IMG/VR virus record: IMGVR_UViG_3300027983_000612
Span: 1 to 28,394 of that record
Reading direction: 5' to 3' (one strand)
DNA: 28,394 bases
Origin: a virus
Shown one piece after another: positions 13,083 through 28,176 of the stretch (its first letter is position 1; every line of letters begins with the position of its first letter). A program made the position numbers and the translations under genes. The notes below the pieces were generated by a model. It ran no database searches. It was not told the origin of the DNA and was given only the letters and a program-made list of their open reading frames with translations.

Positions 13083-13811
13083 TTATTTAACCATCTGTTT
13101 CTTATTTGAGTAGTATCTGAGTAGTGATTGTCTTTGTTTTGCAATATGTTCAGGTGATTTAATTCTACCTTTTAATGCTGTTGATTTTTTTAATTTCGTT
13201 TCTACACTATCAGGCCCTTTCTTTTTTCCTAAATTAGCCAATCTTAATTTCTCTTTTGTTTCTTTAGAATGAGGATTACCTTTCCTTCCAAGTTGTCTTA
13301 AAGATTGTTTTATACGTTGTTCTTCTGTGCGTTTTTTTCCTATATTTTTACCTTTCATAGATTCAGATAGTTTTCTTTTAGATTCTTCACTCATTGGTTT
13401 TCTTTTCTTACCCATATGAGCTAAAGATAATTTAATTTTAGTTTCTTTTGAGTGCTTTCTGCCAGGTTTACCTTTGAGTGATTTTGATCTTAAAGTAGCA
13501 TATTTGATACGCAAAGATTCATATATTTTTGATGTTATTTTATATCTTTGTTGATTATTGTTTTCTAAAGTTGCCATAGCCCAGGCGGCATATACCATTT
13601 TCTTTTTAGCATTACCTTCGTACATTTTTGTAAGGAGAAGATGACAAATAAAATGCTCTCTGGCTGTTAAATTGACAAGATTTTCTTTAAGATTACTACC
13701 GCCTAATGATTTAGGAACAATATGATGAGTTTCATAATACCCATCCGTCAGACGATTTTTAGCTTTGTTGATGATACTATTATAATAGGAAGTATATTTG
13801 TTTTCTAACAC
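13083..13811 (-). CDS. HNH homing endonuclease with NUMOD3 repeats
   Basis: This 242-aa protein has an HNH domain at 25-60 (YYETHHIVPKSLGG, then NLVNLTAREHFICH, with H29/H30, N47 and H53/H57 as candidate catalytic or metal residues). Five or six NUMOD3-like DNA-binding repeats follow from about residue 115, each with the pattern G(K/R)K....(S/T)xE(T/E)xxK(L/I)(S/R). This is the free-standing homing endonuclease type common in T4-like phages. It cuts related genomes lacking it, usually in or near a conserved gene, here presumably the terminase. It is strongly Lys-rich. Start is GTG at 13809-13811, 5 nt after GATAAATA. An ATG two bases upstream hits a stop at once. The frame is intact. Confidence 0.88.
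   Translation of the reverse strand: MLENKYTSYYNSIINKAKNRLTDGYYETHHIVPKSLGGSNLKENLVNLTAREHFICHLLLTKMYEGNAKKKMVYAAWAMATLENNNQQRYKITSKIYESLRIKYATLRSKSLKGKPGRKHSKETKIKLSLAHMGKKRKPMSEESKRKLSESMKGKNIGKKRTEEQRIKQSLRQLGRKGNPHSKETKEKLRLANLGKKKGPDSVETKLKKSTALKGRIKSPEHIAKQRQSLLRYYSNKKQMVK
13084..13090 (-). promoter_or_regulatory. Late-like motif at the terminase start
   Basis: TTAAATA ends 5 nt before the terminase ATG and is formed by the last codons (GTT AAA TAA) of the homing endonuclease gene. It is one base off the TATAAATA consensus. No Shine-Dalgarno is present. It is weaker than the motif upstream of the homing gene. Confidence 0.5.
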
Positions 13812-13816
13812 ATAGT

Positions 13817-13823
13817 TATTTAT
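13817..13823 (-). promoter_or_regulatory. Late promoter upstream of the homing endonuclease
   Basis: GATAAATAACTAT, core 13817-13823, ends 5 nt before the GTG start. The sequence GATAAATAACTATG itself contains an ATG and looks like a former terminase promoter/start now separated from the terminase by the inserted gene. Confidence 0.65.
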
Positions 13824-17403: not shown

Positions 17404-18009
17404 TTATGCTTTTGGTATTTTATTTTGCTTGCTACCTACAGGGCTATCATTGCCTTGTGGTAACTCGTTAGTTGTTTTTCCGTCGTTGCCTTCTGGAATA
17501 TCATCACTACCTGCTATCTCAATCTTTGGTTGATTTAATTCTTTAAGGATGCTATCTGCATTAGCGTACTCTTTTCCAGCTTTAGTTGCATCTGGATTGT
17601 CTGCATAAGGCTTGTCTAGCACTGATTCACCTTTCTTATATTCGTGTAGTTCACTTTCACCACTTTCGTTCCAGCGCCAAATCTCTTCTGGATGGTTTTT
17701 TGGAACAACTTTAATGTTTGCTTTGGCAATATTAGCACGTTCAGCTACCACTGATCGAACTTGTTCGTCATTACACGGATATGTTAGAACAGCATCCATT
17801 AGATATAGTTCCACAGTACCATGATTAGGAAAATCAATATCTCCCTCTTTTAATGGTAGACGTTTTGGTTTGCTAAGGCTTTCTAAGCCGTATGTGTTCA
17901 GTGCGTTCTCTAACTTATCCATTTTATCTGTCGGATCGTCGTTTGCTATCTTGATACGAAACTCGTACGTATGTTGATTTTCAGCTAGATATTTTAAAAA
18001 TGTTTTCAT
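17404..18009 (-). CDS. Virion-type protein (201 aa) with capsid-targeting-like N-terminus
   Basis: Function unknown. The N-terminus MKTFLKYLAENQ aligns residue for residue in style with the T4 internal-protein targeting peptide MKTYQEFIAEA, including the (I/L)-A-E site. The next 100 residues look folded (HTYEFRIKIANDDP, GTVELYLMDAVLTYP, VVAERANIAKANIKVVPKN) with an alpha/beta pattern. The last 60 are polar and Gly/Asn/Asp-rich. A late motif lies 21 nt before the ATG with AGGAAAC as ribosome site. It is likely packaged in the head or part of the core. It sits between gp16 and the 951-aa protein. Confidence 0.7.
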   Translation of the reverse strand: MKTFLKYLAENQHTYEFRIKIANDDPTDKMDKLENALNTYGLESLSKPKRLPLKEGDIDFPNHGTVELYLMDAVLTYPCNDEQVRSVVAERANIAKANIKVVPKNHPEEIWRWNESGESELHEYKKGESVLDKPYADNPDATKAGKEYANADSILKELNQPKIEIAGSDDIPEGNDGKTTNELPQGNDSPVGSKQNKIPKA

Positions 18010-18030
18010 AAATTTGTTTCCTATATTTGT

Positions 18031-18037
18031 TATTTAT
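18031..18037 (-). promoter_or_regulatory. Late promoter of the 201-aa gene
   Basis: GATAAATAAC on the minus strand in the 42-bp gap after gp16, 21 nt before the ATG. A TAGGAAAC ribosome site follows, so this unit has a normal leader. Confidence 0.72.
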
Positions 18038-18051
18038 CTTGTTAGGACAAA

Positions 18052-18564
18052 TTAATCTTTGGGTTTTTCACCTAAGATCTGTTTTAACAGTTCGTTGCGG
18101 TCTAGTATAATAGCATGACCATCGGCGGCATCTATTAACTTTTCGCCGTCATTTTTGGTGTTTTGTTGGTCTAAACGGGCCTTTTTAAGCTGTAAATCTA
18201 TCATACGGAGCTTCTTATCTAACTTGGCTTGTTTAGCTGTAATAGCATGCCCTAGCAACGTTCCTGCTGTGGCTAATATGTGTCCTGAAAAGCGTGCTTC
18301 AACGTTCATTCCTAGATCAATTAAGTCTTGGAATTTTTCTTTAGCAAGATCGCTTAGATCATCTAACTCTTTGTCACTGATGTCTAAATCATTAACAAAT
18401 GGCAGGGCGGCATCAATCTTGTCAATGGCATCGTCCATGTCTTTAATTACAGCACGTTGAGATTCTATTGATGGGGGAGTCTCAGCAGTGCTATCGGTGT
18501 CATTGTTTTCCGTATTTTCCTCTGCTGGAGATATGTTAAATAATTCTTCAAGTTTTTGTGTCAT
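18052..18564 (-). CDS. 16: gp16-like terminase small subunit
   Basis: This 170-aa protein has an acidic disordered N-terminus, a long helical central region (ARFSGHILATAGTLLGHAITAK, then KLDKKLRMIDLQLKKARLDQQ) and a C-terminal IILDRNELLKQILG. T4 gp16 (164 aa) has the same plan: a central coiled coil for ring formation and a short C-terminal segment (VFMGSPTELMDEIG) with the same spacing. The protein recognises DNA and stimulates gp17. The gene is unusually far from gp17, with about 5 kb of other genes between. The call rests on pattern and length, without strict motifs. Confidence 0.75.
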   Translation of the reverse strand: MTQKLEELFNISPAEENTENNDTDSTAETPPSIESQRAVIKDMDDAIDKIDAALPFVNDLDISDKELDDLSDLAKEKFQDLIDLGMNVEARFSGHILATAGTLLGHAITAKQAKLDKKLRMIDLQLKKARLDQQNTKNDGEKLIDAADGHAIILDRNELLKQILGEKPKD

Positions 18565-20767: not shown

Positions 20768-20774
20768 TATTTAT
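20768..20774 (-). promoter_or_regulatory. Late promoter of the tube-cap gene
   Basis: GGATAAATACTG directly follows the U-tract of the tail-tube terminator, 21 nt before the ATG at 20746. TTGGAG is the ribosome site. Confidence 0.78.
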
Positions 20775-20777
20775 CCG

Positions 20778-20807
20778 AAAAAAAAGCCCAGGTTTTTAAG
20801 CTGGGCT
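20778..20807 (-). terminator. Rho-independent terminator after gp19
   Basis: The stem AGCCCAG/CTGGGCT has a 9-nt loop and, on the minus strand, a run of eight T ends it. It lies 25 bp after the tail-tube stop codon. It is the strongest terminator in the window. Confidence 0.9.
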
Positions 20808-20831
20808 AGTTTATTTTATTTTTCGTCTGTA

Positions 20832-25908: not shown

Positions 25909-25937
25909 ATTATAACTAATATAGACTACAAGGTCAA
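25909..25937 (-). promoter_or_regulatory. Sigma70-type promoter of the kinase gene
   Basis: TTGACC (25932-25937), 17-bp spacer, TATAAT (25909-25914) on the minus strand. The -35 matches at 5 of 6 and the -10 is perfect. It lies in the 59-bp gap after the neck gene. Confidence 0.85.
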
Positions 25938-25955
25938 CTAAATTTTAACCTTGTA
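25927..25955 (-). repeat. Inverted repeat at the neck-gene stop, overlapping the kinase -35
   Basis: TACAAGGT (25948-25955) and ACCTTGTA (25927-25934) are 8-bp arms with a 13-nt loop containing the TAA stop of the neck gene. The downstream arm overlaps part of the -35 TTGACC. It could be a 3'-end hairpin of the late mRNA, an operator, or both. No U-tract follows. Confidence 0.5.
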
Positions 25956-26868
25956 TCCACCACATTGGTTGCCCACCGTCTATGTATAGTTTGATCTCTT
26001 CGTCGAGCTTATCTAGTAGTGCAAGGCCTTCTTGTTTAAGTGCTGTACCGTTTAATGTAGTACCGCCTTGTGGGCCTGCAATTGTAGCAAATTTCTCACG
26101 TGCCTGTCCAATACTGATTGATGTAAGAGCATAGGCATAGTCTTGTATCCACGGAAATGCTTGAGGATCATTTAGTAATATTTGATCTGGTTTGTAGTTG
26201 TATGTCCATAGCAATACACTTTCTTTTACTATGTCTGGACCTTGTATGCCACCCCATGGAATTTTTCGCACTATGGTTAATTTTTTAGTAACCTTATTCC
26301 ATGTAAAATTCATAAACCCGCCAAACATCTTCATAGCTAACTCTTGATATCCAGTGAATAGTTCATATTGAGCTAGGCCGCCAATACGTCCAGCTACCAA
26401 CATATAAGTGTTTAGGTATCCTGATGCGAATGGTTCAAATTGGCTAGCTGTTGTTCCTGTTACTGATCCAATTCCACGACGGAATATCTGTTTGACATCA
26501 ATAATGTAGTTAGGTAGTATGTATTCTTGTGTCTCTGGGTAAACATCTAAGAACACGTAGCTCTCTTCAACGGCATTAGAACTGCGTTGCCTGTATCTGT
26601 TGAATGCCTGTTTGATACCCATCTCAAAATGTTCTTGATCAGCTTCAACATCAATCATTCCATAGCCTAATCTTAAACGTATGTAGTCAATGATGTCAGC
26701 TCTAACGGATGCTACAGAATCTAACTGTGCCTGTAGATTAGCGTCAAACGCTATGTGTCCGGCCCCACTACCTGTAACATTAGAATACAGATTCTTTGGT
26801 TCGACTGTCAGGGTAGAAGTCAGGTTACCTGAGGTGTTTGATATAAATTCTGGTAATTCGTTGGGCAT
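25945..26868 (-). CDS. 13: Neck protein, gp13-like
   Basis: This 307-aa protein is the same size as T4 gp13 (309 aa). Conserved blocks, as I remember them from marine T4-like phages, are SVRADIIDYIRLRLG, FNRYRQRSSNAVEESY, DVKQIFRRGIG, VAGRIGGLAQYELFTGYQEL and AREKFATIAGPQGGTTLNG. gp13 and gp14 form the neck that joins head and tail. gp14 is the less likely alternative, and it is not seen in this window. The gene has a late motif 21 nt upstream and AGGATAA as ribosome site. Both lie in an inverted repeat that may control its translation. It is transcribed away from the 401-aa gene in the same direction, 47 bp apart. Confidence 0.72.
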   Translation of the reverse strand: MPNELPEFISNTSGNLTSTLTVEPKNLYSNVTGSGAGHIAFDANLQAQLDSVASVRADIIDYIRLRLGYGMIDVEADQEHFEMGIKQAFNRYRQRSSNAVEESYVFLDVYPETQEYILPNYIIDVKQIFRRGIGSVTGTTASQFEPFASGYLNTYMLVAGRIGGLAQYELFTGYQELAMKMFGGFMNFTWNKVTKKLTIVRKIPWGGIQGPDIVKESVLLWTYNYKPDQILLNDPQAFPWIQDYAYALTSISIGQAREKFATIAGPQGGTTLNGTALKQEGLALLDKLDEEIKLYIDGGQPMWWIQG

Positions 26869-26872
26869 TAGT

Positions 26873-26914
26873 TTTATCCTGTTATTCTGTATTTATGCTG
26901 AACAACAGGATAAA
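26873..26914 (-). promoter_or_regulatory. Predicted hairpin switch hiding the neck-gene ribosome site
   Basis: TTTATCCTGTT (26904-26914) and AACAGGATAAA (26873-26883) are perfect 11-bp arms. The downstream arm contains the Shine-Dalgarno AGGATAA. The 20-nt loop contains the late promoter. RNA reading through from upstream would have both arms and bury the ribosome site. RNA from the late promoter would start near the second arm and keep it open. Confidence 0.75.
26890..26896 (-). promoter_or_regulatory. Late promoter of the neck gene
   Basis: GCATAAATACAG on the minus strand, in the loop of the inverted repeat. A T4-like start about 6 nt downstream falls at 26884, at the edge of the downstream arm. 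Confidence 0.75.
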
Positions 26915-26915
26915 T

Positions 26916-28121
26916 TTAGATTACTTTAAGGAGTATAGTATCTGCGTTGATACGTCCGTTGAGTTTAGTATCGGTTGTCTTGATTGATTCTATAAACTTA
27001 CGTAATTGTATTTTTCCTGCACCTTTAAAGTCTTTTAACTGTTGTTCGGGCTTACGTAGAGTTTTTTGTACACTGTGGGATTGATCAAATCCCACAATAC
27101 TAGTACCTTTAACACCTAGTGTGCTAGCATGTGCATCAGCTACATATTTTCCTAGCTTACGAGTTTTAGTATTATAAATCCACAGTGTTTCTGCAGTTAA
27201 TATGTCTACAGGATTTACTGATACCAATTTACTTTTGCTATCTTCTTTGAGATATTTTAGTTTAGCAACAACTTTTTCTTTTGCTGGTGCTTTGCGTACT
27301 CTTGCCTGTTTTGTTGCTTTCTTGACTTGTGCATAAGCTTCTAGATCAGCAAACAATTTAGCATAAAACGCCTCAAACCGCTTGTAATCTGCCGCTTTAT
27401 AGTGACTATAACCTTCTTTTAGTTGCTCATTTTGTCCTGCTTTAGCTTCTATTAGTTCTTGCCTGTGTACTTCAAAAAATGCACTAATCTTTTTAATTAA
27501 GGCTTGTGGACAGTTTTCTGTTTTAAGATATTCAAATGCTTTAGGATCAGACACAGTTTCACCATTCATTAATTGATCTTCAAACAGTTCAAAATGCAAG
27601 ATGTGCTTGTCAGCGATCTCGTTCATACGATTTTGTATTGTAGGAACGTTTACTTTGGGCTTGCTATCACTGACAACTGTGTCAACAATACCAGTTGCCT
27701 GGGTTAACAGTCTATCTAATTCTTTGTTTATATAATTTGTAACTGGTTTAACTTTTCCTGTAGTACCACCAAGGCTTTCCCAATAGTCATTGTATTGTTG
27801 GTGAACATCAGGCATACCTAACATTAGCATACGACACACCCCACCTAGAGTGCTACCAAATTGACTGTCTGAATTTTTAGCTATGCTTTTGCTATGTTTA
27901 GACCATTGCTCGCTGGCATTTACCCAATTAATTACCCATTTTTTGTATTGAGCCGTTTTAGCCTCTATGCTGTAGTAATACATAGCATCGTGTAAGTGCT
28001 TAGAATATGCGGCACCTAACATTGCTGTTGCATTGTCCCATTTAGGTTCTTTAGCAGTGGCCATGCTCATTGCCTTGGTTGCCTTCGCTTTTCTTTTTGC
28101 ACCGTCGATCTGTATCGCCAT
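26916..28121 (-). CDS. Conserved 401-aa protein of unknown function
   Basis: I do not know a function. The N-terminal 170 residues are helical (AAYSKHLHDAMYYYSIEAK, QYKKWVINWVNASEQW). A Lys/Ala-rich stretch at 255-295 (ATKQARVRKAPAKEK) may be a linker or nucleic-acid contact. The C-terminal 110 residues look like a separate domain with LWIYNTKTRKLGKYVADA and KGTSIVGFDQSHSVQKTLRKP, which I believe recur in hypothetical proteins of T4-like cyanophages. AAGGAA is the ribosome site. A perfect consensus sigma70 promoter lies just upstream, so it is likely an early-expressed gene whose transcript can run into the neck gene. Confidence 0.75.
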   Translation of the reverse strand: MAIQIDGAKRKAKATKAMSMATAKEPKWDNATAMLGAAYSKHLHDAMYYYSIEAKTAQYKKWVINWVNASEQWSKHSKSIAKNSDSQFGSTLGGVCRMLMLGMPDVHQQYNDYWESLGGTTGKVKPVTNYINKELDRLLTQATGIVDTVVSDSKPKVNVPTIQNRMNEIADKHILHFELFEDQLMNGETVSDPKAFEYLKTENCPQALIKKISAFFEVHRQELIEAKAGQNEQLKEGYSHYKAADYKRFEAFYAKLFADLEAYAQVKKATKQARVRKAPAKEKVVAKLKYLKEDSKSKLVSVNPVDILTAETLWIYNTKTRKLGKYVADAHASTLGVKGTSIVGFDQSHSVQKTLRKPEQQLKDFKGAGKIQLRKFIESIKTTDTKLNGRINADTILLKVI

Positions 28122-28147: not shown

Positions 28148-28176
28148 ATTATATTAGTAAAGTTCCCGTCTGTCAA
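28148..28176 (-). promoter_or_regulatory. Perfect consensus sigma70 promoter
   Basis: TTGACA (28171-28176), exactly 17 bp, TATAAT (28148-28153) on the minus strand. Both hexamers match the E. coli consensus in full. The -35 overlaps the TGA stop of the preceding gene. It drives the 401-aa gene. Confidence 0.92.

Follow-up and report, generated by a model that had tools for sequence, protein, structure and literature searches.

Organization of the neck gene locus

The window, i.e. the whole 28-kb stretch of viral DNA analysed here, carries on its minus strand, in this order, a sigma70 promoter, a gene for a 401-aa protein, a hairpin and a gp13-like neck gene. The individual features are as follows:

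28148..28176, minus strand: sigma70-type host early promoter of the 401-aa gene, TTGACA-17-TATAAT, 12/12 match to the consensus
26916..28121, minus strand: early-type gene for a 401-aa protein of unknown function (phrog_11903), stop codon at 26918-26916
26900..26914, minus strand: 5' arm of the hairpin (anti-Shine-Dalgarno arm), beginning 1 nt past the stop codon of the 401-aa gene
26888..26899, minus strand: 12-nt loop of the hairpin, AGCAUAAAUACA (from the fold)
26890..26896, minus strand: T4-type late promoter motif ATAAATA in the loop (motif match)
26873..26887, minus strand: 3' arm of the hairpin, including the Shine-Dalgarno (SD) sequence AGGA at 26880-26877 (from the fold)
25945..26868, minus strand: neck/head-tail adaptor gene, T4 gp13-like (phrog_211), ATG at 26868-26866

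The arms contain an 11-bp perfect inverted repeat, TTTATCCTGTT (26873-26883) and AACAGGATAAA (26904-26914), to which an earlier note on this DNA had drawn attention; its halves are indeed exact inverse complements, but its extent was understated, as the RNA stem comprises 15 pairs. The other elements described there were recovered as well: the late motif inside the repeat (minus strand, 26890-26896), the sequence AGGATAA in the downstream arm (minus strand, 26880-26874), which ends 5 nt before the gp13 ATG (26868), and the perfect host-type promoter (12/12) of the 401-aa gene, between which and gp13 a terminator scan detected no terminator-like site, in agreement with the same note. Judging from the spacing known in T4, the late transcript is predicted to start at about 26884, in the 3' arm; with the late promoter located in the loop, the 5' arm is therefore predicted to be missing from the late RNA.

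The ATAAATA motif occurs in nine copies in the window, and because all of them are on the coding strand and just 5' of a gene, they are likely late promoters. The 11-bp perfect inverted repeat is the single case with a spacer of 3-40 nt in the window, while dinucleotide shuffles contain on average 0.33 such repeats, so that, taken by itself, the repeat is only slightly unusual and constitutes weak evidence. What is not due to chance is that it wraps both a late promoter and an SD sequence, and that this arrangement is conserved with covariation in relatives.

The 401-aa gene is, judging from its upstream sequences, early-type across the group. Among 81 distinct upstreams of this gene, only two have a late motif within 60 nt, and sigma70-like sites matching at least 10 of 12 positions are present in 34/81, compared to 30/810 shuffled sequences and 6/125 upstreams of late genes. 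In other T4-like phages, the neighbours of its homologs are replication-type genes (RNase H, ligase). The dNMP kinase gene that follows gp13 also has a near-perfect sigma70 site (25937-25909, 11/12). Thus, gp13 would be a late gene located between two early-type genes, which would explain the need for protection at a post-transcriptional level. An 11-pair hairpin after gp13 (25909-25955, TACAAGGT...ACCTTGTA) overlaps the -35 region of the dNMP kinase promoter.

Predicted folding and accessibility of the Shine-Dalgarno sequence

In the sense RNA, positions 26914-26900 pair with 26887-26873, and the 15 pairs comprise the 11 perfect ones, one G.U and three more, closing a 12-nt loop (26899-26888) that contains ATAAATA. 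The fold has an energy of -18.0 kcal/mol (z = -6.5), and none of 200 shuffled sequences folded equally well. The claim of the earlier note that the SD sequence is hidden in the read-through RNA and free in the late one was borne out by the folding of both forms: the gp13 SD is computed to be unpaired with a probability of 0.001 when the read-through RNA is folded, as opposed to 0.81 for the predicted late RNA, and adding as much as 500 nt from upstream leaves these values unchanged. Among the nine genes with late promoters in the window, the SD is deeply buried only in the gp13 leader.

The same is found in related phages. In 109 leaders of relatives without an antisense gene directly upstream, the median unpaired probability of the SD is 0.00 in the read-through and 0.63 in the late form, and 94 of them have a buried SD (below 0.2 in the read-through RNA). 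In four jumbo relatives, the other late-promoter genes (a set which includes their own gp13 genes) show a median of 0.48 in the read-through form. For SD burial among late-promoter genes, gp13 ranks 3/38, 1/40 and 1/25 in three of these phages, and 16/22 in the fourth, which has lost the stem; these ranks led us to reject the possibility that such a hairpin accompanies every late gene. In jumbo relatives, hairpins do wrap the promoters of a few other late genes, all on minus strands: those for a baseplate-wedge/fibre-connector-like protein (L339), for a 163-aa protein without known function (L354) and for an Asn/Thr-rich protein of 358 aa (L329).

Conservation among related leaders

Four scans of viral contigs yielded ca. 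290 loci (with several contigs recurring), which were reduced to 114 distinct gp13 leaders, including that of the window. ATAAATA is present at most 60 nt from the gp13 start in 111 of the 114, and the other three have CTAAATA. The sequences of the arms vary widely (e.g. TTATCCTGTT/AACAGGATAA, ACTCCGT/ACGGAGT, AAGTCCTG/CAGGACTT and GCCCTGCTAAT/ATTAGCAGGG), yet in most leaders the stem, of about 10-18 pairs and with one late promoter, surrounds the late motif and includes the SD. The hairpin is therefore not private to the phage in the window, but, apart from some losses, near-constant throughout a large set of gp13 leaders. Homologs of T4 gp55 were identified in three of the four jumbo relatives (E-values from 3e-7 to 3e-8); the window itself is a 28-kb fragment.

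RNAalifold, run on the MAFFT alignment A2, reported no structure, probably because indels in the loop put the arms out of register. After this null result, the named structure was evaluated on the same MAFFT alignment, and counts based on the pairing register were made. The comparison of this intergenic region in relatives, proposed in the earlier note, reveals arms that vary and nevertheless keep their pairing: in a structure-blind alignment of 54 leaders both sides have changed at 13 of the 15 pairs, the covariation score is 0.282, compared to 0.187 +/- 0.011 in shuffled and at most 0.173 in slid controls, and there are 92 compensatory cells versus 52 in shuffles. That note had regarded arms varying without pairing as evidence against a switch. 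The opposite was observed: in 43 disjoint pairs of related leaders, pairing is kept at 59 of the 79 changed pair positions as opposed to 67 of 262 in slid controls, a count that is favoured by the stems having been picked for pairing. Of these 59 positions, 36 have both sides changed and 23 are retained via G.U. In the Watson-Crick register score, the leaders reach 10.1 with their own 5' arm, 6.4 with arms swapped between phages and 4.8 with shuffled arms.

G.U pairs form in the sense RNA only. In 71 unique stems, whose registers were set by Watson-Crick pairs only, 48 G.U were counted against 16 A.C, while the composition predicts 1.13:1 (p = 4e-4, a value to be taken as indicative, since the stems are related). 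The excess of G.U therefore points to selection on the sense RNA and not on a DNA dyad.

Proposed mechanism and alternative explanations

The best explanation for these observations, which we consider very probably correct, is an RNA timing switch that acts in cis on the neck gene and is of the type known from T4 e, soc, 49 and I-TevI. From the anatomy of the locus, folding, conservation, covariation and the early-type upstream promoters, we infer read-through, the late start and translational silencing. Early transcripts from the sigma70 promoter of the 401-aa gene would continue into the neck gene, and in this read-through RNA the 5' arm would pair with the 3' arm, hide the SD of the neck gene and prevent ribosomes from starting. 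Once the late sigma factor of the phage (gp55 type) is active, transcription would begin from the ATAAATA in the loop, near 26884 and within the 3' arm, and the resulting RNA, devoid of the 5' arm, would leave the SD open and allow the neck protein to be made. At the level of modelling, the interpretation of the earlier note as a T4-style hairpin switch is thereby supported.

Translational coupling, according to which the neck gene is translated only together with the 401-aa gene, as the terminating ribosome opens the stem, appears unlikely. In the window, the distance from the 401-aa stop codon to the stem is 1 nt, so that a ribosome terminating there could open the hairpin for a short time; of 92 relatives, 44 have the stop codon at most 11 nt from the base of the stem and 26 have it within the stem. 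However, in the other 22 it is located 12-34 nt upstream, beyond the reach of a terminating ribosome, and there the SD is equally buried (median 0.0006). Coupling also leaves unexplained why almost all members have a late promoter in the loop, and the hairpin of T4 gene e is likewise close behind the stop codon of nudE, yet e is reported to be silenced about 100-fold (PMC3014915).

Two further readings, each of which we regard as very improbable, have been set aside for most members. A weak intrinsic terminator that halts the early RNA before the neck gene would agree with the TTTT found directly at the stem end in 24 of 109 leaders, but no U-run follows the stem in the window and in the remaining 85, the stems are rather A+T-rich, the window lacks the combination of a G+C-rich stem and a U-run typical of intrinsic terminators, and the terminator scanner gave no match at the window hairpin. 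L106, L107 and L059 are among the 24 leaders with TTTT or more between the stem and the ATG; in such clades, weak termination might be an additional function of the hairpin. As to a protein-binding DNA dyad over the late promoter, a promoter-centred dyad could be an operator, and I-TevI represses its own late promoter via an overlapping site (PMC2988022), but a DNA site would keep its sequence, while here the arms change freely with pairing kept, and it would show no strand bias such as the preference for G.U over A.C on the sense strand.

Returning to the timing switch, we find it somewhat more plausible than not that it is a cis RNA element conserved throughout a large group of T4-like phages, mostly uncultured and in part jumbo, and that it is under selection wherever the neck gene directly follows an early gene but becomes dispensable when this link is cut. 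If so, neck protein made too early would be costly enough to keep the pairing through dozens of compensatory changes.

Comparison with known hairpin-controlled genes

The T4 genes e, soc and 49, which the earlier note had cited as precedents, are all named as members of this class, together with I-TevI, in a review (PMC3014915), and I-TevII, I-TevIII, segB and Aeh1 mobE are also controlled by hairpins (PMC2988022). Gene e resembles the window in having a late promoter in the hairpin region, the SD in the 3' arm and a hairpin that closely follows the stop of the upstream gene (nudE), and, used as a positive control in the same computation, it gave SD unpaired values of 0.0006 in the read-through and 0.58-0.86 in the late RNA. 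It differs in being a lysis gene (lysozyme) with an 11-pair stem and two late promoters, and its structure is listed for close relatives of T4 only (PMC3014915), whereas the group described here has a neck gene, about 10-18 pairs, one promoter and many diverse lineages. The soc gene, like gp13, encodes a virion protein; soc and gene 49, though named in the same class, come out weaker in the computation (read-through/late 0.31/0.83 and 0.51/0.66, respectively). In I-TevI, I-TevII, I-TevIII, segB and Aeh1 mobE, the ribosome-binding site is sequestered in long early or middle RNAs and freed in late ones (PMC2988022), and for I-TevI a deletion of the 5' arm has been tested (PMC3014915). These hairpins control mobile endonucleases, whereas that of the window precedes a structural gene, and in some gp13 relatives endonuclease genes have instead replaced the 5' arm.

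As modelled, the window hairpin exhibits each computable feature of the class, i.e. the SD in a helix, the placement of the promoter and an SD that is free in the late RNA. The hairpin trick is already known from T4; in the present case it appears to be conserved unusually deeply, throughout a group of phages and at a gene for head completion. No report of a hairpin switch in a gp13 leader was found in open-licence papers, to which the search was confined. The known switches are few, have mostly been studied in T4 and its close relatives, and act on genes for lysis, for a capsid decoration protein, for a nuclease and for homing endonucleases. That such a switch would guard a head-completion gene suggests that making the neck protein early does harm or is wasteful, and the group supplies more than 100 natural sequence variants of the device.

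Losses and exceptions

Five loci (L271, L109, L136, L231 and L227) carry an antisense gene immediately upstream of the late promoter of gp13. Its product is an HNH homing endonuclease (phrog_655) in L271 and L109, and a virion structural protein in L227; a similar HNH gene in L136 and, in L231, a GIY-YIG-like ORF were identified by eye. In L271, L109 and L231 the 5' arm has been lost and the 3' arm and late motif retained, L227 has no strong stem, and L136 has lost the long stem with its SD still buried; SD burial is thus lost in four of the five lineages. L271 and L273 show no difference in gp13 across the aligned columns, and of the two the stem is present only in L273, where the 401-aa gene adjoins. 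In L091, where a sense gene has been inserted upstream, the stem is retained. The antisense insertions represent five separate events on the tree, a number with which the sign test (median p 0.125) cannot reach significance, and the 5' arm may have been lost through the insertion itself. These losses are consistent with the switch model, but do not prove it; as natural losses beside antisense insertions, they make the purpose of the switch testable.

Homing endonuclease genes are present in antisense orientation at the same spot in four gp13 lineages (HNH in L271, L109 and L136, GIY-YIG-like in L231), and the four insertions share the flank GAGTAGTTGG...GCGAACTACA (sense strand), just upstream of the gp13 late promoter. 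By its sequence context, this spot is a putative recurrent insertion site for homing endonuclease genes.

About 10 of the 109 leaders without an upstream antisense gene have an exposed SD (L049, L113, L127, L129, L148, L153, L154, L201, L208 and L212). L216, L251 and L161 seem to use another stem, the 5' arm of which is the promoter region itself (ATACTC with GGAGTAT). In the isolates PA5oct and BUCT-ZZ01 a homolog of the 401-aa gene precedes a neck-type gene, yet no clear switch was detected; the open-licence literature contained nothing usable on RNA start sites of PA5oct.

Other elements in the window

The late promoter at 18031-18037 is also located within a weaker hairpin, TTTGTCCT with AGGAAACAAA (18009-18060), for which the computed SD unpaired probability is 0.38 in the read-through and 0.78 in the late RNA; it is a possible second, weaker switch. 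Directly 5' of the late promoter of a 362-aa tail-tube-like gene there is a terminator-like hairpin with a T-run (20768-20809, AGCCCAG...CTGGGCTTTTTTTT), so this gene may be insulated by a putative terminator instead of a hairpin switch. Finally, an HNH homing endonuclease ORF (13083-13823, phrog_655), with a GTG start and a late promoter motif of its own, extends over the 5' end of the ORF for the large terminase, whose start codon here is TTG; the HNH insertion may have altered the start of the terminase.
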